From Pseudoxanthomonas suwonensis 11-1 (lineage in GTDB: Bacteria; Pseudomonadota; Gammaproteobacteria; Xanthomonadales; Xanthomonadaceae), in the NCBI RefSeq assembly GCF_000185965.1, contig NC_014924.1, positions 2,232,001 to 2,296,000 of the forward strand: a stretch of 64,000 bases of DNA. The letters run 5' to 3'. The notes under the pieces were generated by a model. That model was not told the origin of the DNA. It made no database searches and saw only the letters and a list, made by a program, of their open reading frames with translations. Shown here piece after piece: positions 51,960 to 64,000 of this stretch (the first letter of the stretch is position 1; every line of letters starts with the position of its first letter). The translations under genes and the position numbers were made by a program.

Positions 51960-52820
51960 TCAGAACCGGCCTTCCTGGTAATCCACGAAGGCCTGCATCA
52001 GTTCCTGCCTGGTGTTCATCACGAACGGGCCGTAGCGCGCCACCGGTTCGCGCAGCGGCCTGCCGGCGACCAGGATCAGCCGCGCCGGCACCCCGCCTGC
52101 GCGCAGCACCAGCCTTGCACCGCCGCCCAGCACGCCCATCTCGCGTGCCTGCAGCGGGCGCGCGTCATCGCCCTCGCCCAGTCCGACCGCGCCCTCGAAC
52201 ACGTAGGCGAAGGCGTTGTGGCCTTCGGGCAACACGAACTCCCACGACGTGCCCGCGGCCAGGCTGATGTCCAGGTACAGCGGATCGGTGGCCGGCTGCT
52301 GGATCGGTCCGTCCACGCCATCGACGCGGCCGGCGATCACCTTGACCTCCACGCCCATGGCAGGCCGCACCACCGGGATGCGGTCGGCGGCGAACTCCTG
52401 GTAGCGCGGATCGGTCATCTTGTCGCGCGCCGGCAGGTTCACCCACAGCTGGAAGCCGCGCATGCGGCCGGACTCCTGCTCCGGCATCTCCGAATGCACC
52501 AGGCCGCGGCCGGCGGTCATCCACTGCACGCTGCCAGGCGTGAGCAGGCCCTCGTTGCCGTGGTTGTCGCGATGGCGCATGCGCCCGTCGAGCATGTAGG
52601 TCACGGTCTCGAAACCGCGGTGCGGATGCTCGGGGAAGCCGGCGATGTAGTCCTCGGGCCGGTCGGTGCCGAACTCGTCCAGCATCAGGAACGGATCCAG
52701 GTCGGGCAGCTCCGGTCCGCCGATGACGCGGGTCAGGCGCACGCCGGCGCCGTCGGAGGTGGGCATGCCGCGGACCTTGCGCAGCAGGCGCACCGGCTCG
52801 CCCTGGGTGTGGGTGCTCAT
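51960..52820 (-). CDS. Pirin family protein
   Basis: The 286-residue protein is a bicupin of the pirin family. The N-terminal cupin carries the metal ligands HPHRGFETVTY (two His) and GRGLVHSEMPE (His, Glu); the second cupin (about 170-270) is less conserved. Bacterial pirins may have quercetinase-like dioxygenase activity or bind regulators; the substrate here cannot be told. Start chosen at MSTHTQGEP because GGAGAG lies 5-10 bases upstream. It follows the spu operon on the same strand, 124 bp after spuH. Confidence 0.92.
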   Translation of the reverse strand: MSTHTQGEPVRLLRKVRGMPTSDGAGVRLTRVIGGPELPDLDPFLMLDEFGTDRPEDYIAGFPEHPHRGFETVTYMLDGRMRHRDNHGNEGLLTPGSVQWMTAGRGLVHSEMPEQESGRMRGFQLWVNLPARDKMTDPRYQEFAADRIPVVRPAMGVEVKVIAGRVDGVDGPIQQPATDPLYLDISLAAGTSWEFVLPEGHNAFAYVFEGAVGLGEGDDARPLQAREMGVLGGGARLVLRAGGVPARLILVAGRPLREPVARYGPFVMNTRQELMQAFVDYQEGRF

Positions 52821-52944
52821 GTCGCTCTCCATGGTGGACTGCCCCGGAGGATGGGGCCGGCCGCGGCCGTCCGGAACGGCCACGCGGACGAAGAACCGTT
52901 GCGCTGGCGGAACGGTGCCTGGGCACCGCTCGGCGGATACCGCC

Positions 52945-53790
52945 TTAGCTGTTGTCCTGCAGGGCCAGCTGCATGTCGCGCTGGCGGCGCTTGTCCTCGC
53001 GGTACATCAGCCACCAGCCGATCACCGCCGCCAGCGAGACGGCCATCATCAGCAGCGTCGCCAGGGCGTTGATCTTGGGGCTCACGCCCAGCCGCACCGA
53101 GGAGAAGATCTTGATCGGCAGGGTGGTCGATTCCGGGCCGGAGACGAAGCTCGCGATCACCACGTCGTCCAGCGACAGGGTGAAGGCCAGCAGCCAGCCG
53201 GAGACCAGGGCCGGGGCGATGATCGGCAGGGTGATCAGGAAGAACACCTTGACCCGGTTGGCGCCCAGGTCCATCGCCGCCTCCTCCAGCGACTTGTCCA
53301 GCTCCTGCAGGCGCGAGGACACCACCACGGTCACGAAGGATACGGTCAGGGTCACGTGCGCGATCCAGATCGCGACCATGCCCTTGGACGGCAGGCCCAG
53401 CGCGCCCCCCACCGAGACCAGCATCAGCAGGATCGACAGGCCGATGATCACCTCCGGCATCACCAGTGGCGCGGTGACCAGGGCGCCGAACAGGGTCTTG
53501 CCGGGGAAGCGACGGAAGCGGGTCATCACCATCGCGCCGAGGGTGCCGACCACGGTGGCCGCGGTGGCGGTCCAGAACGCGATGCGCAGGCTGACCCAGG
53601 CCGCGTCCAGCATCTGCCGGTCGCGCATCAGCTCGCCGTACCACTTCACCGAGAACCCGGCCCAGACCGTGGCCAGGCGCGAGGAGTTGAAGGAGTACAC
53701 CACCAGCAGCACGATCGGCAGGTACAGGAAGGCGAAGCCGAGGACCAGCACCGCCCAGCGCAGCATGCGCAGGCCAAGGGGCGTGTTCAT
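52945..53790 (-). CDS. spuH: Polyamine ABC transporter permease (SpuH/PotI family)
   Basis: The 281-residue inner-membrane permease is the second of the two in a PotFGHI/SpuDEFGH-type polyamine importer. It has about six membrane helices, beginning AVLVLGFAFLYLPIVLLVVY, and the EAA coupling motif LEEAAMDLGANRVKVFFLI (about 165-185) that contacts the ATPase. Its start overlaps the end of spuG (ATGA), so they are translated together. Last gene of the spu operon. Confidence 0.95.
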   Translation of the reverse strand: MNTPLGLRMLRWAVLVLGFAFLYLPIVLLVVYSFNSSRLATVWAGFSVKWYGELMRDRQMLDAAWVSLRIAFWTATAATVVGTLGAMVMTRFRRFPGKTLFGALVTAPLVMPEVIIGLSILLMLVSVGGALGLPSKGMVAIWIAHVTLTVSFVTVVVSSRLQELDKSLEEAAMDLGANRVKVFFLITLPIIAPALVSGWLLAFTLSLDDVVIASFVSGPESTTLPIKIFSSVRLGVSPKINALATLLMMAVSLAAVIGWWLMYREDKRRQRDMQLALQDNS

Positions 53791-54698
53791 GCCAGCCGCC
53801 CTTCCAGCGTCCGCTGCTGGGATCGGTTGAAGATGAGGATCGGCACCAGCAGCAGGAGCAGCATCACGATCGCCACCGCCGAGGCCGCCGGCCAGTCGCG
53901 GTTGTTGAAGAACTCGCCCCACAGCACGCGGCCGATCATCAGCGTGTCCGGGCCGCCCAGCATTTCCGGGATCACGAACTCGCCCACGGTCGGGATCATC
54001 ACCAGCATGCAGCCGGCGACGATGCCCGAACGCGACAGCGGCAGGGTGATGCGCACGAACGCCTTCCACGGCCGCGCGCCGAGGTCGTAGGCGGCCTCGA
54101 GCAGGCGGTTGTCCAGCTTCACCAGGTTGGCGTACAGCGGCAGGATCATGAAAGGCAGGTAGCAGTAGACGATGCCGATGTAGGCCGCCAGCGGGGTGTA
54201 GAGGATCCGCAGCGGCGCATCGATCAGGCCGGTCCACAGCAGGAAGCGGTTGAGGATGCCATTGGCGTCGAGGATGCCGATCCAGGCATAGACCCGGATC
54301 AGGAACGAGGTCCAAGACGGCAGCACCACCGCCATCAGCGCGATGTTGCGGGTGGACGGGTTCATCCTCGCGATGAAGTACGCCATCGGGTAGCCGATCA
54401 GCAGGCAGAACGCGGTGGAGACCACCGCGATCCTGATCGAGCTGAGGTAGGCCAGGCCGTACTGCGCGTCCATGAACAGCGCCGCGTAGTTGCCGAGGTT
54501 CAGGCGCAGGTGCAGCGCCTTGTCCACCACCTCCACGATCGGGGTGTACGGCGGCATGGCGATGGCCAGCCGCGAGAACGAGATCTTCAGCACGATCAGG
54601 AACGGGATCGCGAAGAAGAACAGCAGCCACAGGAAGGGGATGGCGATCACCGCCCAACGCCCCGACGGCAGGTAGCGGGACAGCGTGCGCAGGTTCAT
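53787..54698 (-). CDS. spuG: Polyamine ABC transporter permease (SpuG/PotH family)
   Basis: The 303-residue inner-membrane permease has about six helices and a short cytoplasmic N terminus (MNLRTLSRYLPSGRW). The first helix is VIAIPFLWLLFFFAIPFLIV, and the coupling motif LEAAYDLGARPWKAFVRI lies near 205-222. The SpuG position is fixed by its neighbours, with spuF upstream and spuH downstream. Its start overlaps the spuF stop (ATGA). It forms the translocation pore with SpuH. Confidence 0.95.
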   Translation of the reverse strand: MNLRTLSRYLPSGRWAVIAIPFLWLLFFFAIPFLIVLKISFSRLAIAMPPYTPIVEVVDKALHLRLNLGNYAALFMDAQYGLAYLSSIRIAVVSTAFCLLIGYPMAYFIARMNPSTRNIALMAVVLPSWTSFLIRVYAWIGILDANGILNRFLLWTGLIDAPLRILYTPLAAYIGIVYCYLPFMILPLYANLVKLDNRLLEAAYDLGARPWKAFVRITLPLSRSGIVAGCMLVMIPTVGEFVIPEMLGGPDTLMIGRVLWGEFFNNRDWPAASAVAIVMLLLLLVPILIFNRSQQRTLEGRLA

Positions 54699-55834
54699 GA
54701 CAGCAGCACCACGCCGTCGCTGTCGCGCCACCATACCCAGACCTCGTCGTTCCAGGTCAGCTCGTCGCTGGCCCAGCGCTGCTGGTTGGCGAAGTTGACC
54801 ATCAGCTTGGAACCGCTGGGCAGGCGCACGTGGAACACCGAGTGGCTGCCGAAGTAGGCGATGTCCTCGATGATGCCGCGGGCCTTGTTGTACGGCTGGT
54901 CGGGTTCGGCCTTGCCTATGCCCAGCTTTTCCGGGCGCAGGGCGAAGGACACCGGCTGGCCCTCGAAGCCGGTGATGCCGTGGCCGATGTAGATCGGCGC
55001 GTCGAAGAATGGGGTGCGCAGGGTCACGTAGTCCGGCTGGTCGTCGTCGATCACCGCGTCGACCAGGTTGACCGAACCGATGAACTCGGCGGCGAAGCGG
55101 TTGGCCGGCTGCTCGTAGATCTCGTCCGGCTTGCCGACCTGCTGGATCCAGCCCTGGTCCATCAGCGCGATGCGGCTGGCCATGGTCATGGCCTCCTCCT
55201 GGTCGTGGGTGACCATCACGCAGGTCACGCCGGAGGACTCGATGATGTTGACCAGCTCCAGCTGCATGCGCGAGCGCAGCTTCTTGTCCAGCGCGCCCAT
55301 CGGCTCGTCCAGCAGCAGCAGCTTCGGCCCCTTGGCCAGCGAACGGGCCAGCGCCACGCGCTGCTGCTGGCCACCGGAGAGCTGGTGCGGCTTGCGCTTG
55401 GCCAGCTTGCCCAGCTGCACCAGCTCGAGCATCTCCCCGACCCGCTTGCGCACCGCGTCGCGCGACAGGCCATCCTGCTTCAGGCCGAAGGCGATGTTCT
55501 GCTCGACGGTCATGTGCGGGAACAGCGCGTAGGACTGGAACATCATGTTGATCGGCCGCTCGTACGGCGGCAGCTCGTTCATGACCTCCCCGTCCAGCAC
55601 GATCCGGCCCTTGGTCGGCTGCTCGAATCCTGCCAGGCAGCGCAGCAGGGTCGACTTGCCGCTGCCGGAGCCACCCAGCAGGGCGAAGATCTCGCCCTTG
55701 CGGATGTCCAGGCTGACATCGTCCACGGCGACGAAGCCGTCGAATTCCTTGCGCACGTTCTCGATGCGCAGGTACCCGCCCGCTTCGCCGCCAGCGGCGG
55801 GGGTCGGGGTAGCGCGTTCGGGGCTTGACGCCAT
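54695..55834 (-). CDS. spuF: Polyamine ABC transporter ATP-binding protein (SpuF/PotG family)
   Basis: The 379-residue ATPase powers polyamine import. It has Walker A GGSGSGKSTLL (about 52-62), the Q-loop MMFQSYALFPHMTVEQN, signature LSGGQQQRVALARSLA, Walker B LLLDEPMGALD and the H-loop VTHDQEEAM. A C-terminal TOBE domain (about 290-379) may mediate regulation. The ATG has GGAG 5 bases upstream. A 69-bp gap with a perfect 9-bp stem-loop separates it from the upstream binding-protein gene. Confidence 0.95.
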   Translation of the reverse strand: MASSPERATPTPAAGGEAGGYLRIENVRKEFDGFVAVDDVSLDIRKGEIFALLGGSGSGKSTLLRCLAGFEQPTKGRIVLDGEVMNELPPYERPINMMFQSYALFPHMTVEQNIAFGLKQDGLSRDAVRKRVGEMLELVQLGKLAKRKPHQLSGGQQQRVALARSLAKGPKLLLLDEPMGALDKKLRSRMQLELVNIIESSGVTCVMVTHDQEEAMTMASRIALMDQGWIQQVGKPDEIYEQPANRFAAEFIGSVNLVDAVIDDDQPDYVTLRTPFFDAPIYIGHGITGFEGQPVSFALRPEKLGIGKAEPDQPYNKARGIIEDIAYFGSHSVFHVRLPSGSKLMVNFANQQRWASDELTWNDEVWVWWRDSDGVVLLS

Positions 55835-55860
55835 GTTTACTCCATTGGCAGGCATGGGGG

Positions 55861-55883
55861 GCGGGCCGCCGGGAGCGGCCCGC
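55861..55883 (-). promoter_or_regulatory. Intercistronic stem-loop after the second binding-protein gene
   Basis: GCGGGCCGC (55861-55869) and GCGGCCCGC (55875-55883) form a perfect 9-bp stem around CGGGA, 20 bp after the stop codon and without a T-run. Stem-loops at this place in ABC operons usually protect the upstream binding-protein message. Confidence 0.55.
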
Positions 55884-55903
55884 ACCTGCGGTAAGCGGGC
55901 AGC

Positions 55904-57031
55904 CTAACGGCCGCTCTTCAGTTCGGTCCAGATCCGGGTGTAGAGGCGGTCCACCTCGGGCGGGATCACCGCCAGCATGAACAGCTTTTCCGACACTTCC
56001 GGCGGCGGATAGATCGTCGGGTCATTGCGGATTTCGTCGTCCACTTGCGCCAGCGAGGCCGGCACGGGGTTGGGGAAGCTGACGTAGTTGGTGTTGGCCG
56101 CGGCCACGTCCGGGCGCAGCAGGAAGTCGATGAAGGCGTAGGCCTGGTCGACGTTCCTGGCATCCTTGGGGATGGCCAGCATGTCCACGAACAGCGGCGC
56201 GCCTTCCTTCGGGATCGAATAGGCGACCTTGACCCCGTTGCCGGCCTCGTCGGCGCGGTCGCGGGCCTGCAGCACGTCGCCGGACCAGCCCATCACCAGG
56301 CAGGCGCTCCCATTGGCCAGGGCATCGATGTACTGGCTGGAGTGGAAGCTGCGGATGTGGGGACGGATCTTGGCCAGCAGCGCGGCGCCCTTGCGGATCA
56401 CCTCGGGGTCGGTGCTGTTGGGATCCTCGCCCAGGTAGTTCAGCGCGGCCGGGATCGCCTCGGTCGGCGTGTCCAGGATCATCACGCCGCAATGGGCCAG
56501 CCTGGACACGTTCTCGGGCTTGAACAGCAGGTCCCAGCTGTTGGCGACCTCGGTGCCGCCAAAGGCCTCGGTGACCTTGTCGACGTTGTAGCCCAGGCCG
56601 GTCGTGCCCCACAGGTAGGGGATCGAATACTGGTTGCCCGGGTCCTGCACGGCGATGCGCTGCATCAGTTCGGGGTCGAGCCCGGCGTAGTTCTGCAGGC
56701 GGGAGGTGTCCAGCGGCTGGAACACGCCGGCCTGGATCTGGCGGCCAAGGAACTGCAGGGAGGGCACGACCACGTCGAAGCCGGAGCCGCCGGCCAGCAG
56801 CTTGGCTTCCAGCACCTCGTTGCTGTCGAACACGCCGTAGGTGACCTTGATCCCGGTTTCCTCCTGGAAGCGGGGGACCGTGTCCTCGGCGATGTAGTCG
56901 GACCAGTTGTACACATGCACCACCCCGGCGCCGGAAGGCTTGCCGCCCTCCTTGCCGGTTTCGCCCGACTGGCCGCACGCGGCCAACCCGAGCACCATCA
57001 GACCAAGCAACCCAGCCTTGCACGTACCCAT
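55904..57031 (-). CDS. Polyamine-binding lipoprotein (SpuD/SpuE/PotF family), second copy
   Basis: The 375-residue extracytoplasmic binding protein captures a polyamine for SpuFGH. A lipoprotein signal ends at LAAC (Cys19), so it is membrane-tethered rather than free in the periplasm. Pocket residues by alignment to PotF are W43 in YNWSDYI, the MGWSGD Trp and Asp, and F281 with D283 in EGAPLFVDM. A Phe at this place is the putrescine-type residue (E. coli PotF F276, P. aeruginosa SpuD F273), which suggests putrescine. It stands in the spuE position of the operon. Confidence 0.93.
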   Translation of the reverse strand: MGTCKAGLLGLMVLGLAACGQSGETGKEGGKPSGAGVVHVYNWSDYIAEDTVPRFQEETGIKVTYGVFDSNEVLEAKLLAGGSGFDVVVPSLQFLGRQIQAGVFQPLDTSRLQNYAGLDPELMQRIAVQDPGNQYSIPYLWGTTGLGYNVDKVTEAFGGTEVANSWDLLFKPENVSRLAHCGVMILDTPTEAIPAALNYLGEDPNSTDPEVIRKGAALLAKIRPHIRSFHSSQYIDALANGSACLVMGWSGDVLQARDRADEAGNGVKVAYSIPKEGAPLFVDMLAIPKDARNVDQAYAFIDFLLRPDVAAANTNYVSFPNPVPASLAQVDDEIRNDPTIYPPPEVSEKLFMLAVIPPEVDRLYTRIWTELKSGR

Positions 57032-57149
57032 CGCATCCCCTTTGCCCCATCGGGCGAGTGGTGGTCCCCGGCGCCATGGCAGGGGACGGCGGCCGGATCA
57101 CTCCGGCTGCCGCCCTGACAGGCCGCGGCCCTCCGACGGATGCGAAACC

Positions 57150-57169
57150 GGCGCCGCCTCGGCGGCGCC
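57150..57169 (-). promoter_or_regulatory. Intercistronic stem-loop after the first binding-protein gene
   Basis: GGCGCCGCC (57150-57158) and GGCGGCGCC (57161-57169) form a perfect 9-bp stem just after the stop codon, then GGTTTCG on the minus strand. It looks like a stabilising or weakly terminating element between the two binding-protein genes. Confidence 0.55.
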
Positions 57170-57180
57170 TGGCGGCCGGG

Positions 57181-58305
57181 TCAGCGGCCGGTCTTGATCT
57201 CCGTCCAGAGCCGCGTGTACAGCTTGTCCGTCTCCGGCGAGTTGATCGCGTAGGTGAACATGCGCTCGGCCACGTCCTCCGGCGGGTAGATCGTCGGATC
57301 GTTGCGGATCGCCTCGTCCACCAGCGGCGTCGCGGCGCTCACCGGGTTGGCGTACTGGATGTAATTGGTGTTGTTGGCGGCCACCTGCGGCTCGAGCAGG
57401 TAGTTGATGAACGCGTACGCGTTCTCCGGGTGCTTCGCATCGGCCGGGATGGCCAGCATGTCGAACCACTGCGGGGCGCCTTCCTTCGGGATCGAATAGG
57501 CGACGTTGACGCCGTTCTCCGCTTCCTCGGCGCGGTCGCGGGCCTGGATGATGTCGCCGGACCAGCCCACTGCCAGGCAGGTGCTGCCATTGGCCAGCGA
57601 GCTGACGTACTGGCTGGAGTGGAAGTTCTGCACGTACGGGCGGATCGACTTGATCAGGTCGGCGGCCTTCTGCAGCTTTTCCGGGTCCTCGCTATGCGGA
57701 TCCTCGCCCAGGTAATGCAGGGCGATCGGCAGCATGTCCGCGGGGGTATCCAGCAGGGTCACGCCGCAGTCCTTCAGCTTGCTGATGTTCTCCGGCTTGA
57801 AGACCAGGTCCCAGCTGTCGGCGACGTCGGTGGAGCCGAAGATCTCGGTGATCTTGTCGACGTTGTAGCCGATGCCGGTGGTACCCATCATGTAGGGCAC
57901 GCCGTACTCGTTGCCCGGATCCTGGCCGGCGATGCGCTCGAGCACCTTCGGGTCCAGGTTGGCCAGGTTCGGGATCCTGCTCTTGTCGAGCTTCCTGAAC
58001 ACGCCGGCCTGGATCTGGCGGCCGAAGAAGTTCAGGGTCGGCACGACGACGTCGTAGCCGCTGGAACCGGCCAGCAGTTTGGTCTCCAGCACTTCGTCGC
58101 TGTCGTAGACGTCATAGGTGACGCGGATGCCGGTCTGCTCCGTGAAGCCGGGGATGGTGTCCTCGGCGATGTAGTCGGAGTAGTTGTAGACGTTGAGGAC
58201 CTTCTCCTCGGCGCCACCTCCCGGCCCCTGCGCGGCATCGTCCTTGCCGCCACAGGCGGCAAGCAGGGTGGCGGCAATGCCCAGGGTGAGCAGGCGGAGC
58301 TTCAT
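57181..58305 (-). CDS. Polyamine-binding lipoprotein (SpuD/SpuE/PotF family), first copy
   Basis: The 374-residue lipoprotein (lipobox LAAC, Cys18) is a paralogue of the next gene downstream. The family parts are YNYSDYI (Y42 instead of the usual Trp), VGWSGDIIQARDR, and EGAPQWFDM with W280 and D282. A Trp at this pocket position is the spermidine-type residue (PotD W255; SpuE W271), so I infer spermidine binding although the gene is in the spuD position. It is transcribed after spuC, with 71 bp between. Confidence 0.93.
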   Translation of the reverse strand: MKLRLLTLGIAATLLAACGGKDDAAQGPGGGAEEKVLNVYNYSDYIAEDTIPGFTEQTGIRVTYDVYDSDEVLETKLLAGSSGYDVVVPTLNFFGRQIQAGVFRKLDKSRIPNLANLDPKVLERIAGQDPGNEYGVPYMMGTTGIGYNVDKITEIFGSTDVADSWDLVFKPENISKLKDCGVTLLDTPADMLPIALHYLGEDPHSEDPEKLQKAADLIKSIRPYVQNFHSSQYVSSLANGSTCLAVGWSGDIIQARDRAEEAENGVNVAYSIPKEGAPQWFDMLAIPADAKHPENAYAFINYLLEPQVAANNTNYIQYANPVSAATPLVDEAIRNDPTIYPPEDVAERMFTYAINSPETDKLYTRLWTEIKTGR

Positions 58306-58376
58306 CGTAGGTGTCCTCGGGGGGATGGGTTCAGGCGGTTCAGGTTAGCGCTGGCGAGGGGCTTTGCCCATCCCTT

Positions 58377-59741
58377 TCAGCGGCCGATCGCCTCCGCGGT
58401 CTCGCCCAGGGCCTTCCACGCCTTTTCGAACAGCTCGTCCACCTGCTCGCGGGTCAGCACCAGCGGCGGCGACAGCAGCATGGAGTCGTACGTGGCGCGC
58501 AGGATCAGGCCGTGGCGCAGTGCGGTATCGCGGCACAGGCCGCCGACCTTGCCACGCTCGGGGAAGAACTCCCGCCTGCCCTTGTCCGGGACCAGCTCCA
58601 GCGCGCCCATCATGCCGACGATGCGGGCCTGGCCCACCAGCCGGTGCTCGCCCAGTTCGGCCCAGCGCTGGGCCAGGTACGGGGCGACCTCCTCGCGGGC
58701 GGTGTCCACGATCCGCTCCTCGCGCATGATCCGCAGGTTCTCCAGCGCCACCGCCGCGCACACCGGGTGGCCCGAATAGGTGGCGCCGTGGGCCAGCTCG
58801 CCGCCGACGTCCTTCAGCACCCCGGCCACGCGGTCGTTGAACAGCGCCGCGCCCAGCGGGATGTAGCCGGAGGTGATGCCCTTGGCGATGGTCATCACGT
58901 CGGGCTGGATGCCGAAATGCTGGCTGCCGAACCACTGCCCGGTACGGCCGAAGCCGCAGATGACCTCGTCGGCCACCAGCAGCACGTCGTACTGGCGGCA
59001 GATCCGCTCGATCTCCTTCCAGTAGCTCATCGGCGGGATGTACACGCCGATGGCGCCCATCACCGGCTCGCCGATGAAGGCCGCGACCCGGTCCGGGCCC
59101 AGCTCCAGGATCTTCTGCTCCAGGCGGCGGGCGGCGACCAGCCCGTACTCCTCCTCCGACAGGTCGCCGCCGTCGGCGAACCAGAACGGCGGGTCGATGT
59201 GGTGGATGTCCGGGATCGGCAGCCCGCCCTGCTCGTGCATGCCCTTCATGCCGCCCAGGCTGGCGCCGGCAACGGTAGTGCCGTGGTAGCCGTTGTGGCG
59301 GCCGATGAAGATGTTCTTCCGCGGCTTGTCCTGGACCGCCCAGAAGTGCCGCACCAGGCGCAGGATGGTGTCGTTGGCCTCGGAGCCGGAGTTGACGAAG
59401 AAGGCGTGGTTGAGGTCGCCCGGCGCCAGCCCGGCCAGCTCGGCCGCCAGGCGGATGGTCGGCTCGGTGGTGCACTGGAAGAAGCTGTTGTAGTAGGCCA
59501 GCTGCTCCATCTGCCTGGCCGCCGCCTGGCCCAGCTCCTTGCGGCCGTAGCCGATGTTCACGCACCACAGGCCGGCGAAAGCGTCCAGCAGCTTGTTGCC
59601 CTCCGCATCCCAGACGTAGCAGCCCTCGCCCCGTACCAGTACCCGGGTACCCCGCTTCGCCAGCGCGGCGTTGTCGTTGAACGGGTGCAGGTGGTGGACG
59701 GCGTCCAGGCGCTGGAGTTCGGGAAGGTCGATCGGGGCCAT
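58377..59741 (-). CDS. spuC: Polyamine:pyruvate aminotransferase SpuC (class III)
   Basis: SpuC transfers the amino group of putrescine or related amines to pyruvate with PLP. The 454-residue class III aminotransferase has FVNSGSEANDTILRL (about 108-122), the NGYHGTTVAGASLGG loop, the cofactor Asp in LLVADEVICGFGRTG, and the Schiff-base Lys in TIAKGITSGYIPLG (Lys near 288). It is part of the spu operon, behind spuB by 55 bp and ahead of the binding proteins, so its substrate is most probably imported polyamine. Confidence 0.94.
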   Translation of the reverse strand: MAPIDLPELQRLDAVHHLHPFNDNAALAKRGTRVLVRGEGCYVWDAEGNKLLDAFAGLWCVNIGYGRKELGQAAARQMEQLAYYNSFFQCTTEPTIRLAAELAGLAPGDLNHAFFVNSGSEANDTILRLVRHFWAVQDKPRKNIFIGRHNGYHGTTVAGASLGGMKGMHEQGGLPIPDIHHIDPPFWFADGGDLSEEEYGLVAARRLEQKILELGPDRVAAFIGEPVMGAIGVYIPPMSYWKEIERICRQYDVLLVADEVICGFGRTGQWFGSQHFGIQPDVMTIAKGITSGYIPLGAALFNDRVAGVLKDVGGELAHGATYSGHPVCAAVALENLRIMREERIVDTAREEVAPYLAQRWAELGEHRLVGQARIVGMMGALELVPDKGRREFFPERGKVGGLCRDTALRHGLILRATYDSMLLSPPLVLTREQVDELFEKAWKALGETAEAIGR

Positions 59742-59796
59742 GCGGCGTTGTCCTTCGGGTTTTCGGGCCGTGCGCCGGCGGCCGGCGCGCGGCGGG

Positions 59797-61188
59797 TCAG
59801 ACGTTCAGCAGCAGGAACTCGCGCTCCCAGGAGCTGATCACGCGGAAGAAGGTCTCGTATTCCTTGCGCTTGACCGACACGTAGGCGCGCACGAAGCGCG
59901 GCCCCAGCAGGGTCGCCAGCGGGGTGCAGGTCTCCAGCTCGTCCAGCGCCTCGCCCAGCGAGCGCGGCAGGTCGTAGCCCAGTTCCTTGGCGCTGACCTC
60001 GGTCGGGGCGGTCGGGGTGAGCTGCTCGCGGATGCCCAGCAGGCCGCAGGCCAGGGTCGCGGCCATGGCCAGGTACGGGTTGGCGTCGGAGCCGGCGAAG
60101 CGGCTCTCCACGCGCTGGTTCTCCGGGGTGTCCATCGGCACGCGCAGGCCGCAGGTGCGGTTGTCGAAGCCCCAGCGCACGTTGCTCGGCGAGACCTCGC
60201 CGAACATCAGCCGCCGGTAGGAGTTCACGTTCGGGGCGAAGAAGGCCATCGCCATCGGCACGTACTTCTGCAGGCCAGCCAGGTAGTTGCCGAACACCGG
60301 GCTGAACTCGCCCGGCTTCTTCCCGGTGAACACGTTGCGGCCCTTGCGGTCCACCAGGCTCTGGTGGATGTGCATCGCGCTGCCGGGCTCGGTCTCCATC
60401 GGCTTGGCCAGGAAGGTGGCGTACACGCCGTGGCGCATCGCCGCCTCGCGCATGGTGCGCTTGAACAGGAACACCTGGTCGGCCAGCGACAGCCCGCCGG
60501 CGTGGGTGAAGTTGACCTCCAGCTGCGCCGCGCCGGACTCGTGGATCAGGGTGTCCACGTCCAGCTCCATCGCGTCGCAGTAGTCGTACATCAGGTCCAG
60601 GATCGGGTCGAATTCGTTGACCGCGTCGATCGAGTACGACTGCCGCGCCGTCTCCGGGCGGCCGGAGCGGCCGGCCGGGGGCAGCAGCGGGAAATCCGGG
60701 TCGGTGTTCTTCTGCACCAGGAAGAACTCCAGCTCCGGCGCCACCACCGGACGCAGGCCTTCCTTCTCGTACTCGGCCAGTACCTTGCGCAGCACGTTGC
60801 GCGGGGCCAGCTCGTGCGGATGGCCGTCCTTGGTGTAGCAGTCGTGGATGATCTGGGCGGTCGGGTCGGTGGCCCAGGGCACCATCCGCACCGTATCCGG
60901 ATCCGGCCGCAGCAGCATGTCCGAGTCCGAGGGGGAGGTCAGTTCGTAGTAGTCGTCCGGATAGTCGCCGGTGACCGTGGTGGCGAAAATACCTTCCGGC
61001 AGGCGGGTGCCGTAGTCGTGGCTGAACTTGTCGGCGGGGATGATCTTGCCGCGCGCATTGCCGGTGATGTCCGGCACCAGGCACTCCACCTCGGTGATGT
61101 GCCGCTCCTTGAGCCAGCGCCGGAGCGAGTTCTCCTGCTGCTGTTCGGTGCTCGGCTCGGGTTTTCGGGTGCGTTTGCGGGTACTCAT
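59797..61188 (-). CDS. spuB: Gamma-glutamylpolyamine synthetase (glutamine synthetase family)
   Basis: The 463-residue protein is of the glutamine synthetase fold. It is of the PuuA/SpuB type that ligates glutamate to a polyamine with ATP. Motifs include VPDITGNARGKIIP, PELEFFLVQKNTDPDF, the catalytic GSAMHIHQSL, the NSYRRL and NRTCGLRVP ATP loops, and ESRFAGSDANPYLA. It differs from GlnA in lacking the conserved adenylylation segment. It follows spuA with overlapping stop and start (4 bp), so SpuA and SpuB are made together. Confidence 0.94.
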   Translation of the reverse strand: MSTRKRTRKPEPSTEQQQENSLRRWLKERHITEVECLVPDITGNARGKIIPADKFSHDYGTRLPEGIFATTVTGDYPDDYYELTSPSDSDMLLRPDPDTVRMVPWATDPTAQIIHDCYTKDGHPHELAPRNVLRKVLAEYEKEGLRPVVAPELEFFLVQKNTDPDFPLLPPAGRSGRPETARQSYSIDAVNEFDPILDLMYDYCDAMELDVDTLIHESGAAQLEVNFTHAGGLSLADQVFLFKRTMREAAMRHGVYATFLAKPMETEPGSAMHIHQSLVDRKGRNVFTGKKPGEFSPVFGNYLAGLQKYVPMAMAFFAPNVNSYRRLMFGEVSPSNVRWGFDNRTCGLRVPMDTPENQRVESRFAGSDANPYLAMAATLACGLLGIREQLTPTAPTEVSAKELGYDLPRSLGEALDELETCTPLATLLGPRFVRAYVSVKRKEYETFFRVISSWEREFLLLNV

Positions 61189-61973
61189 GCGGTTGTCCGG
61201 GTGCGGTCGGGGGCCGGCGTGGCGGCGCGGCGTTCGGCCCAGGCCCGGCATGCATCGCCGAACGCGCGGAAGATCGCCAGGTAGAAGGGATTGGAGCTGA
61301 CCTGCCATTCGGGATGCCACTGCACCCCGAGCAGGAAACCGGGGCCGGTGCCGCGGAAGGCCTCGACCAGGCCGTCCGGCGCTCTGGCCTCGGCGACCAG
61401 GCCCTCGCCCAGACGGGCGATGCCCTGGCCGTGCAGCGAATTCACCCGGACCCGCGAGGTGCCGGCCAGTGAGGCCAGCAGGCCGCCGGGGACCAGGTCG
61501 ACGTCGTGCGCCGGACCGTACTGCGCGTCCAGCGGATCCTCTGGGTTCTCGCGGTGGTCCATCATCCCGGGGACCTCGTGCACCTTCTGGTGCAGGCGAC
61601 CGCCCAGGGCGACGTTGACCTCCTGCAGGCCGCGGCAGATCGCCAGTACCGGCAGGCCCATGGCGATCGCACGCGGGGCCAGGGCCAGGGTGTTGGCGTC
61701 GCGGGCGGGGTCGTGCAGGTTGCCCTCCCAGCTGGGCTCGTCGCTGTAATGGTGCGGCTCGATATTGCTGACCGCGCCGGTGAGCAGCAGGCCGTCCAGG
61801 CGGGAAAGCCACGTGTCCGGATCCGGGGCCGGCTGCAGCGAGGGCATCAGGACCGGGATGGCATCGGCGCCGTCGACCACCGCGCGCACGTACTTCTCGC
61901 CGGCGGCGAGGAAGGGGTGCGGACCGATCAGTTTGCGGTCGGTAGGCAGTCCGACCAGCGGCGTCAGGGCCAT
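61185..61973 (-). CDS. spuA: Gamma-glutamyl-GABA hydrolase (class I glutamine amidotransferase)
   Basis: SpuA/PuuD hydrolyses gamma-glutamyl-GABA to GABA and glutamate, the last step of the gamma-glutamylated putrescine route. The 262-residue protein has the nucleophile Cys in LAICRGLQEVNVALGG (Cys near 113) and the catalytic His and Glu in GVQWHPEWQ (near 217-225). The overall peptidase C26 layout (VGLPTDRK at the N terminus) is intact. It is the first gene of the operon, divergent from spuI, with 165 bp between. Confidence 0.94.
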   Translation of the reverse strand: MALTPLVGLPTDRKLIGPHPFLAAGEKYVRAVVDGADAIPVLMPSLQPAPDPDTWLSRLDGLLLTGAVSNIEPHHYSDEPSWEGNLHDPARDANTLALAPRAIAMGLPVLAICRGLQEVNVALGGRLHQKVHEVPGMMDHRENPEDPLDAQYGPAHDVDLVPGGLLASLAGTSRVRVNSLHGQGIARLGEGLVAEARAPDGLVEAFRGTGPGFLLGVQWHPEWQVSSNPFYLAIFRAFGDACRAWAERRAATPAPDRTRTTA

Positions 61974-62138
61974 GCGAGCAGCGTCCGATGGCGTTCAGGC
62001 AACTTACCCCGGCCGTTTTATTTTTACAACACGAGGCCATTACCCACGCGACAGGCGGCGCCGCGGCGGGCGATGGCGTTGAGTATTCTTGACGACAGCA
62101 CCGCTGTTACCCTCGTCTGGACCCGCCGAGCCACCGCC
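61974..62138. promoter_or_regulatory. Divergent promoter region spuA-spuI
   Basis: This 165-bp gap separates the two divergent polyamine transcripts. It contains an unusually A+T-rich block, CCGTTTTATTTTTACAACACG (about 62013-62033), suited to a promoter or regulator site. On the minus strand TAAAAT is a possible -10 for spuA. On the plus strand TTGAGT or TTGACG near 62081-62096 may be a -35 for spuI. No gene is seen. Confidence 0.5.
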
Positions 62139-63521
62139 ATGACCCCACCGTCCACGTCCGCACTTCCCGCCGGCGACCTGGCCACCCTGCAGGCCCTCGG
62201 GAGCGCGCCCGACGCCCATGTCGACCTGCTGCTGCCGGATGCCAACGGCGTGCTGCGCGGCAAGCGCGTACCCGCCTCCGCGCTGGAGAAGGTCTACGCC
62301 AATGGCGTCTGCCTGCCGATGTCGCTGGTGGCCGCCGACATCCTCGGCAACACCGTCGAGGAGACGGGCCTGGGCTACGACATCGGCGACGAGGACCGCA
62401 TCTGCCGCCCCGTCCCCGGCAGCCTCAGGCCGGTGCCATGGTCGCCGCGCCCTGCCCTGCAGCTGCTGCTGCAGATGGAGGATGCCGAAGGCGGCTGGTT
62501 CGAGGCGCATCCGCGCCGGGTGCTGCAGCGGGTGCTGGACCGCTTCGCCGCCGCGGGGCTGGCCCCGGTGCTGGCGGTGGAGCTGGAGTTCTACCTGTTC
62601 GACCGCCTGGCCGATGCCGACGGCCGCCCGCAGGCGACGATCAACAGCGCCACCGGTCGCCGCAACGACAGCACCCAGGTCTATTCGATCGACGACCTGG
62701 ACGAGAACGCCGGCTTCATCCATGCCGTGGCCAGCGCCTGCCGCGCCCAGGGCATCCCCGCCGACACCGCCGTGGCCGAGTACGCGCCGGGCCAGTTCGA
62801 GATCAACCTCGCCCATCGCGCCGACGCGCTGGCCGCGTGCGACGACGCGGTACTGCTCAAGCGCGTGATCAAGGCCGTCGCCCAGCAGCACGGCGCGCTG
62901 GCCAGCTTCATGGCCAAGCCGCTGGCGGGCCAGGCCGGCAGCGGCATGCACCTGCACGTGAGCCTGCTCGACCGCGACGGCCGCAACGTGTTCGCCTGCT
63001 CCCCGGATGCGCCGGCCGACGCCCTGCGCCACGCCGTGGCCGGGCTGCAGGCCAGCGCGCGCGACAACCTGCTGCTGTTCGCACCGCACGCCAACAGCTA
63101 CCGCCGCTTCGTCGCCAACGCCTTCGTCCCGCTCAACGACAGCTGGGGCTTCAACAACCGCACCGTGGCCCTGCGCATCCCGCACAGCGACCCGCGCAAC
63201 ACCCGCATCGAGCACCGCATCGCCGGCGCCGATGCCAATCCCTACCTGGTCGCCGCGGCGGTGCTGGCCGGCATCCTGCACGGGCTGGAAACCCGCCAGG
63301 ATCCGGGCCCGCCGGTGGCCGGCAACGCCTACGAACAGTTCGAAGTCCAGCAGCCGCATTGGCGCCAGGCGATCGACGACTTCCTCGCCAGCGAGTTCGC
63401 CGCCCGGTGGTACGGCGAGTCCTTCCGCCACGTCTACGGCCAGCAGAAGCGGCGCGAGATGCTGGACTTCAACACCCTGGTCCCCGACATCGACTATGCC
63501 TGGTACCTGCGCAGCGTCTGA
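62139..63521 (+). CDS. spuI: Gamma-glutamylpolyamine synthetase SpuI (glutamine synthetase family)
   Basis: This is a second, 460-residue glutamine-synthetase-like ligase, divergent from spuAB. Motifs are LLLPDANGVLRGKRVP, VELEFYLFDR, the GSGMHLHVSLLDRDG catalytic block, NSYRRFV, NRTVALRIP and EHRIAGADANPYL. In P. aeruginosa spuI occupies this exact place. It probably glutamylates another polyamine or monoamine; the substrate is not readable. The ATG chosen (MTPPST) excludes 22 unconserved upstream residues. An FAD oxidase gene starts 21 bp after it. Confidence 0.93.
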   Translation: MTPPSTSALPAGDLATLQALGSAPDAHVDLLLPDANGVLRGKRVPASALEKVYANGVCLPMSLVAADILGNTVEETGLGYDIGDEDRICRPVPGSLRPVPWSPRPALQLLLQMEDAEGGWFEAHPRRVLQRVLDRFAAAGLAPVLAVELEFYLFDRLADADGRPQATINSATGRRNDSTQVYSIDDLDENAGFIHAVASACRAQGIPADTAVAEYAPGQFEINLAHRADALAACDDAVLLKRVIKAVAQQHGALASFMAKPLAGQAGSGMHLHVSLLDRDGRNVFACSPDAPADALRHAVAGLQASARDNLLLFAPHANSYRRFVANAFVPLNDSWGFNNRTVALRIPHSDPRNTRIEHRIAGADANPYLVAAAVLAGILHGLETRQDPGPPVAGNAYEQFEVQQPHWRQAIDDFLASEFAARWYGESFRHVYGQQKRREMLDFNTLVPDIDYAWYLRSV

Positions 63522-63542: not shown

Positions 63543-64000
63543 GTGAGCGCGCCCTATCCGCCCAGCTGGTACGCGGCCAGCGCCGCGCCGCTGCCGGAAC
63601 AGCCGGTGCTGGAGGGCGCGGTCGAGGCCGATGTCTGCATCCTCGGCGCCGGCTATACCGGCCTGACCGCGGCGCTGGAACTGGCCGAGGCTGGCTATTC
63701 GGTGGTGGTGGTCGAGGCGCAGCGGGTCGGCTGGGGCGCCTCGGGCCGCAACGGCGGCCAGGCCATCGTCGGCTACGGCTGCGAGCAGGAAACGCTGGAA
63801 CGGCTGCTTGGCCCGGACGAGGCGCGGCTGCTGTTCGATTACTCGCGCGAGGCCATGGACCGCCTGCGCGGACGCATCGCCCGCCACGGCATCGAATGCG
63901 ATTGGCGCGACGGCCATGCCCACGTGCCGATCAAGCCGCGCCAGGAACGCGCCCTGCGCGCCGGCATCATCGAGATGGCCGGGCGCTACGACTACCCGCT
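63543..64000 (+). CDS. FAD-dependent gamma-glutamylputrescine oxidase-like protein (partial)
   Basis: The frame is open to the window edge, so only about 152 residues are seen. It begins at a GTG (VSAPYPPSWYAASAAPLP) and has the FAD dinucleotide loop VCILGAGYTGLTAALELAEAG (about 34-54) and GWGASGRNGGQAIVGYG, both typical of the DAO/PuuB group that oxidises gamma-glutamylputrescine. Placed 21 bp after spuI, it likely forms the second transcript of the polyamine pathway. The 3' part, and hence the final assignment, lies outside the window. Confidence 0.85.
   Translation, partial: MSAPYPPSWYAASAAPLPEQPVLEGAVEADVCILGAGYTGLTAALELAEAGYSVVVVEAQRVGWGASGRNGGQAIVGYGCEQETLERLLGPDEARLLFDYSREAMDRLRGRIARHGIECDWRDGHAHVPIKPRQERALRAGIIEMAGRYDYP

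Follow-up and report, generated by a model that had tools for sequence, protein, structure and literature searches.

We analyzed a 64,000-nucleotide stretch of the Pseudoxanthomonas suwonensis 11-1 genome (NC_014924.1, forward-strand positions 2,232,001 to 2,296,000; hereafter the window), in which two substrate-binding protein genes stand in tandem within a spu-like cluster of catabolic and uptake genes (Table 1). On the minus strand, from 61973 to 52945, the cluster encodes an amidotransferase-like hydrolase, a glutamine-synthetase-like protein, a class III aminotransferase, the two binding proteins, an ATPase and two permeases, with a second glutamine-synthetase-like gene and a flavin adenine dinucleotide (FAD)-dependent oxidoreductase gene on the opposite strand. 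We take this order to be that of spuABCDEFGH with a divergent spuI, and refer to the two binding proteins by their slots as the D-position and E-position proteins. The genome is a single contig of 3.42 Mb with three SBP_bac_8 matches overall, namely this pair and one gene at 1405339. An earlier reading of the same DNA (the original prediction) regarded the pair as lipoproteins whose specificities are swapped relative to SpuD and SpuE of Pseudomonas. Among the matches listed for the open-access literature, none dealt with PotF/SpuD-like binding proteins of xanthomonads.

Both proteins belong to the broad PotF/SpuD-type family (phmmer E 1e-123 to 1e-134; VIA-align Z 43-49 against PotF, SpuD and SpuE). 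They share the fold of PotF, from the PotFGHI putrescine importer of Escherichia coli (PDB 1a99, 6ye0), with 53% (D-position) and 56% (E-position) identity and PotG/H/I-type importer genes in common, but at 472.7 and 474.3 bits they fall below the NCBIfam PotF equivalog cut-off (NF007962, 636). PotD membership was ruled out by NF007048 scores of 185.1 and 196 bits against a cut-off of 582; E. coli PotD (1pot) and Treponema pallidum TpPotD (2v84) have the same fold (Z about 35-38) with about 27-34% identity to the pair, and the distal D168 and Q327 of PotD (PMC8666671) correspond to Thr and to Tyr or Leu.

Alignment bears out the pocket residues first singled out: in the D-position protein, Tyr42 (VYNYSDY) occupies the W37 site of PotF and Trp280 (QWFD) the F276 site, and in the E-position protein these sites hold Trp43 (VYNWSDY) and Phe281 (LFVD). 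At the 12 PotF contact residues as grouped by Kroger and colleagues (PMC8666671), the E-position protein reads, in PotF numbering, W37 S38 D39 S85 Q87 T182 E185 W244 D247 F276 D278 L348, identical to PotF at 10, to SpuD at 8 and to SpuE at 6. The D-position protein reads Y37 S38 D39 T85 N87 T182 D185 W244 D247 W276 D278 Y348, with 5, 4 and 5 identities, respectively. Its changes extend beyond the two originally noted to T90, N92, T187, D190 and Y352, at PotF S85, S87, A182, E185 and L348. The amine-holding acids D39, D247 and D278 are kept in both proteins (D44, D251 and D282; D45, D252 and D283). The aromatic-box Trp37 is retained by the E-position protein (W43) and lost from the D-position protein (Y42), which differs from PotF further in its W276, D185 and Y348; W37 is reported in 100% of 250 PotF homologues and E185 in at least 96% (PMC8666671).

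The D-position pocket is strictly conserved among its relatives, of which the nearest named, within the best 80 of 158, are from P. suwonensis (95% identity) and Pseudoxanthomonas sp. J31 (93%). These 80 named loci and the window form 81 alignment rows, each at least 75% identical to the D-position protein; all 81 have both Tyr37 and Trp276, and a 16-site signature is uniform across them except at site 184 and for one S38N. Because the two residues are shared by every one of these rows, and a lipobox is found in 85 of 85 Tyr37 rows, the combination is not a chance one. Across those 85 rows, each of the 12 contact sites is fixed at 97% or above. A larger set of 112 Tyr37 rows reduces to 93 distinct mature sequences (L152-L179 partly duplicate genomes sampled before), all from Lysobacteraceae, all of D type and all with Trp276. 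Tyr37 is absent from 163 other distinct sequences: Trp37 is present in 117 outside the family and 45 within it, and one outside sequence (L101) has Ser aligned. All 75 phylum-wide rows, which are the better-scoring among the matches listed and include some genes twice (e.g. L180 and L245), have Trp37. L207 is cut short of residue 37, and 18 loci (L081-L091, L092 being kept, then L093, L096, L107-L109, L112 and L113) were omitted from the alignment because their genomes are represented elsewhere or by a longer stretch. Outside the family, site 276 is Trp in 87, Phe in 24 and another residue in 6 of the 117 distinct sequences, and since 32 of them carry Asp185, that residue is not unusual by itself. 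Three of eight D-specific fixed columns fell among the 12 contacts in a first sample (P 0.0017) and two of nine in the larger one (P 0.036), a weakening explained by the frequency of Asp185 elsewhere, and we do not rely on this enrichment. One locus with a 78% identical binding protein (L037, JAHREJ010000019.1) is recorded as Bacillus subtilis subsp. subtilis strain SK7B5 and contains a xanthomonad cluster; it looks mislabelled or contaminated.

The ancestry of the pair was examined in two trees of rows from this alignment, both computed without the 16 inspected pocket columns: a quick one with 95 rows and a more careful one with 38 (9 D, 9 E, 9 Trp/Trp family proteins and 11 others). In the 38-row tree, SpuD and SpuE join the pair from genome G309 in one clade (100/96), apart from the cluster-slot proteins of Lysobacteraceae, whose own clade (99/97) encloses the D, E and Trp37/Trp276 forms; the 95-row tree agrees in relating SpuD and SpuE to each other and placing the family proteins apart. 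Approximately unbiased (AU) tests reject all four one-to-one orthologies, so that neither protein groups with SpuD or with SpuE: E with SpuD (1.6e-38), D with SpuE (8.8e-9; also p-AU 1.6e-4 in the 95-row tree), E with SpuE (1.5e-7) and D with SpuD (1.6e-9). The Pseudomonas and Lysobacteraceae copies were duplicated separately, and gene position therefore carries no inherited specificity; a reading of function from position was ruled out by the trees and AU tests together. The 38-row tree implies one change at residue 37 and four at residue 276. Five Trp37/Trp276 rows are sister to the D clade (99/95), and because four of these five already have T85 and N87, these residues may be older in the D lineage than Y37, D185 and Y348.

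These results make it very unlikely that the two proteins are SpuD and SpuE orthologues whose specificities were exchanged through a Trp/Phe switch. What stands of the swap is that each pair is split between Phe and Trp, in reversed order: in family f160, all 13 loci with a SpuD/SpuE-like pair, from 11 genomes, have Phe then Trp at site 276, and D/E pairs have Trp then Phe. SpuD and SpuE of P. aeruginosa (3ttm, 3ttl) are likewise a tandem pair in what we take to be the same gene order, but they stem from the separate duplication and keep Trp37 in both copies. Orthology fails whether it is assigned by position or by residue, and the D-position protein departs from PotF at six contacts besides site 276 and from SpuE at seven of the 12; moreover, F276W alone fails to switch PotF (PMC8666671). 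The original prediction was thus right in its observation and half right in its interpretation, and a separate duplication that left one PotF-like and one remodelled copy is the better account. Other arrangements occur among the sampled pairs: those of genomes G016 and G117 are Trp/Trp, as are those of L220, L221 and L254. Locus L218 (3717 and 4799, plus strand), which comes from the same order but a distant family, carries a tandem pair with Phe276 then Trp276 and is a possible third independent case. In genus g13, a long-branched Phe276 protein occupies the slot in two loci (L130:7924-9036 and L135:7336-8472) and a Trp276 protein occupies it in three other genomes, which we read as replacement or differential loss.

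Because 10 of its 12 contacts match PotF, the E-position protein is predicted to bind putrescine-class diamines, with putrescine itself a sound prediction. The support comes from the whole pocket and not just from Phe281. The rule that Trp marks spermidine and Phe putrescine is weak, and Trp276 is insufficient to assign spermidine to the D-position protein. In PotF, F276W shifts the putrescine and spermidine affinities each only about threefold and leaves dissociation constants of 0.21 µM and 11 µM, a roughly 50-fold preference for putrescine; strong reversal needs the addition of A182D (putrescine 83, spermidine 3.1 µM; PMC8666671). These affinities and the Trp276 majority among relatives ruled out Trp276 as a sufficient mark of spermidine. 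SpuD prefers putrescine and SpuE is specific for spermidine, with a dissociation constant of 14 nM (PMC4971474), and the best argument for spermidine in the D-position protein is that it has N87 and W276 in common with SpuE. We weakly predict that it takes a longer polyamine, with spermidine as first and cadaverine as second choice; spermidine is possible but under-determined, a best guess that could fall either way. AlphaFold models of the two proteins (predicted local distance difference test 91.1 and 91.2) align with the structures of PotF, SpuD and SpuE across 330-342 residues, the D-position model being nearest apo-SpuE (3ttl; Z 48.2, root-mean-square deviation 1.2, 335 aligned) and the E-position model nearest PotF/D variants (7oyu; Z 49.2, deviation 1.4, 340 aligned); as a ligand discriminator these neighbors were uninformative, since the nearest match probably reflects how open each model is. 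Six other loci (L137, L138, L139, L140, L211 and L212) contain a separate PotGHI-type system with Asp182 and Trp276, and no A-C genes in the stretches read. This system is a natural counterpart of the engineered spermidine-favoring PotF double mutant.

A ligand that is neither putrescine nor spermidine, such as cadaverine, agmatine or an acetylated or glutamylated polyamine, is a doubtful but real possibility for the D-position protein, with Tyr37 and Asp185 marking the change. Its contacts match PotF, SpuD or SpuE at no more than five sites and Tyr37 occurs in no other relative read, but the three amine-holding acids are all retained, the frequency of Asp185 outside the family makes it no special mark, and the neighboring genes resemble those of polyamine catabolism. 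Annotation can mislead here, as three predicted spermidine/putrescine binders of P. aeruginosa failed to bind spermidine and one bound gamma-aminobutyric acid (PMC6829864). The main polyamine of Pseudoxanthomonas arseniciresistens is spermidine (PMC5860741), as it is in four Stenotrophomonas species, two of them also rich in cadaverine; much cadaverine is reported for S. rhizophila and S. pavanii, the latter with only traces of putrescine (PMC5817250). Sampled Stenotrophomonas loci mostly retain a D-type gene alone, which suits a cadaverine ligand, but polyamine content tells what cells hold and not what they import.

The number of binding proteins varies across the family, with two in 18 and one in 74 of the 92 loci that have both B and F genes. 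That one protein suffices so often would suit a pair of broad putrescine/spermidine binders split mostly in affinity or expression and not in specificity, as would the weak spermidine binding of PotF beside that of putrescine and the modest effect of F276W on each (PMC8666671). We consider this unlikely, as the fixation of the D-position pocket at its contact sites suggests a narrow constraint. The aminotransferase and second synthetase are present in all 18 two-protein loci, of which L119 and L120 have Trp/Trp pairs; of the single-protein loci, 41 have neither enzyme, 30 both and 3 the aminotransferase only. This co-occurrence fits a role for the E-position protein in putrescine uptake, but few evolutionary events lie behind it, and both enzymes are retained in 30 loci that have just one binding protein. 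Stenotrophomonas clusters (L009, L011, L014-L023 and others) are mostly without the aminotransferase, the second glutamine-synthetase-like gene and an E-type protein, the enzyme exceptions being L038, L050 and L057, and no aminotransferase match at E 1e-150 was found in the five Stenotrophomonas (code g29) genomes of the family sample that have a D gene (G029, G071, G098, G124 and G145). In Xanthomonas-type loci, the uptake operon is split: between the binding-protein gene or genes and the ATPase gene lie same-strand genes, among them ones for an outer membrane efflux protein and a major facilitator superfamily (MFS) transporter, as read from Pfam domains in L062 and L066. This efflux-pump-like insert spans L062:11306-15667, and gaps of about 4.7-5.3 kb are found in L028, L045, L066, L071 and L079; the two domains lie in separate frames in L062 but share a single 907-aa open frame in L066 (12915-15635).

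The lipobox claim of the original prediction is upheld for both proteins, each of which has a signal sequence with an LAAC motif matching the lipoprotein pattern (Cys18 in the D-position and Cys19 in the E-position protein). Its contrast with Pseudomonas holds for the Pseudomonas-type genome rows, but the motif is a feature of the family and nothing special to the pair. By a PROSITE-like pattern, slightly widened for the phylum rows, lipoboxes were found, beside the Tyr37 rows, in 19 of 19 family W37/W276 rows, in 4 of 4 rows of a separate lower group of the family and in 18 of 22 family Phe276 rows, the remaining four having LAGC with a pattern-forbidden Cys at -4. Only 7 of 25 other gammaproteobacterial rows and 3 of 75 phylum rows have one, and the SpuD/SpuE-like rows from genomes (L142 and the f160 rows) showed none, the SpuD and SpuE crystal sequences themselves being without signal peptides. 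PotF is soluble in E. coli. Lipid anchoring thus seems to be a family-wide trait, and both proteins are probably lipidated and held at a membrane, as far as motifs can tell. In E. coli, Asp after the Cys retains a lipoprotein in the inner membrane (PMC5727369); because Gly follows in both proteins, neither has this retention signal. TpPotD (2v84, titled a lipoprotein) sets a precedent for lipoproteins that bind polyamines, and Neisseria MetQ (PMC8416018) for a lipid-anchored importer binding protein in Gram-negative bacteria, but with methionine as ligand and a different importer family. The third SBP_bac_8 gene, at 1405339, also has a lipobox (LAGC), with ATP-binding cassette (ABC) permease-like frames alongside as judged by eye.

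PotG, PotH and PotI are the top-scoring models for the ATPase and permeases, all below their equivalog cut-offs; with 410 bits, the ATPase does clear the 355.6-bit threshold of the potA subfamily. A promoter and terminator scan of 52800-62400 gave 0 promoter-like sites (0.8 expected) and 3 terminator-like sites (3.7 expected).

Table 1. Genes and sequence features of the cluster, in window coordinates; pocket sites are given in PotF numbering.
Feature	Position	Strand	Basis
D-position substrate-binding protein (P0001), 374 aa, Tyr37/Trp276 type	57181..58305	-	sequence, alignment
Lipobox LAAC (residues 15-18, Cys18), D-position protein	58252..58263	-	sequence, motif scan
Tyr42 codon (W37 site), D-position protein	58180..58182	-	alignment numbering
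Asp190 codon (E185 site), D-position protein	57736..57738	-	alignment numbering
Trp280 codon (F276 site), D-position protein	57466..57468	-	alignment numbering
Tyr352 codon (L348 site), D-position protein	57250..57252	-	alignment numbering
E-position substrate-binding protein (P0002), 375 aa, Trp37/Phe276 type, PotF-like pocket	55904..57031	-	sequence, alignment
Lipobox LAAC (residues 16-19, Cys19), E-position protein	56975..56986	-	sequence, motif scan
Trp43 codon (W37 site), E-position protein	56903..56905	-	alignment numbering
Phe281 codon (F276 site), E-position protein	56189..56191	-	alignment numbering
ABC ATPase, PotG-like (SpuF position)	54695..55840	-	PotG model 514.7 bits (cut-off 613); ABC_tran, TOBE_2
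Permease, PotH-like (SpuG position)	53787..54698	-	PotH model 441.6 bits (cut-off 489)
Permease, PotI-like (SpuH position)	52945..53790	-	PotI model 378.5 bits (cut-off 476)
Class III aminotransferase (SpuC position)	58377..59741	-	NF005682 739.9 bits (cut-off 510); PF00202
Glutamine-synthetase-like, probable gamma-glutamylpolyamine synthetase (SpuB position; putative role)	59797..61188	-	PF00120
Peptidase C26/amidotransferase-like hydrolase (SpuA position)	61185..61973	-	PF07722
Second glutamine-synthetase-like gene, divergent (SpuI position)	62166..63521	+	PF00120
FAD-dependent oxidoreductase, start only (gene cut by window end)	63543..64000	+	PF01266

Taken as a whole, the account that we consider probable is that of a separately duplicated lipoprotein pair, one PotF-like and one remodelled, serving one PotGHI-type importer within a spu-like catabolic cluster. 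Its framework comes from sequence, synteny, phylogeny, conservation and the lipobox motif. The pair would have arisen in Lysobacteraceae, independently of the SpuD/SpuE duplication. Polyamines would enter the periplasm, where two lipid-anchored receptors with different pockets may feed a single importer, a sharing that we infer because only one set of importer genes is present; the E-position PotF-type pocket (W37, E185, F276, L348) would take putrescine-class diamines and the remodelled D-position pocket (Y37, T85, N87, T182, D185, W276, Y348) a longer polyamine. The cargo may then be glutamylated or transaminated by the adjoining enzymes, going by the family names of these proteins.

Several points weigh against this account. 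The N87 and W276 that the D-position protein shares with SpuE suit the simple Trp rule too, and its distal site is without the D182 or Q348 that favored spermidine in PotF mutants together with F276W (PMC8666671); its Thr182 and Tyr348 set it apart from the engineered spermidine type. Confidence in both structure models is low (block means 41-52) across residues 1-30, the anchor region. The AU p-values are valid for pre-named groups, and D, E, SpuD and SpuE were named beforehand, but we chose the representative D and E rows. Finally, the E-type (F276) rows are not one clade in the free tree, yet a single clade is not rejected (p-AU 0.096), so there may have been one duplication, with losses or conversion, or several.

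We suggest, tentatively, a further step: the D clade of Xanthomonas, Stenotrophomonas and Pseudoxanthomonas may be a separate functional class of PotF-fold binding protein, whose Tyr37/Asp185/Tyr348 pocket recognizes a polyamine, or a derivative of one, in a mode unlike those of PotF, PotD, SpuD and SpuE, and a Phe/Trp split after tandem duplication may have evolved at least twice, with L218 a third candidate. The two pairs amount to a natural experiment on the evolution of polyamine specificity: tandem duplications took place separately at one operon slot, each leaving a Phe and a Trp copy but in reversed order, and an aromatic-box Trp reported as fully conserved among PotF homologues (PMC8666671) has been replaced in one of the copies. 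They also caution against naming polyamine binders by gene position or by a single residue, which may affect annotation in Xanthomonas and Stenotrophomonas.

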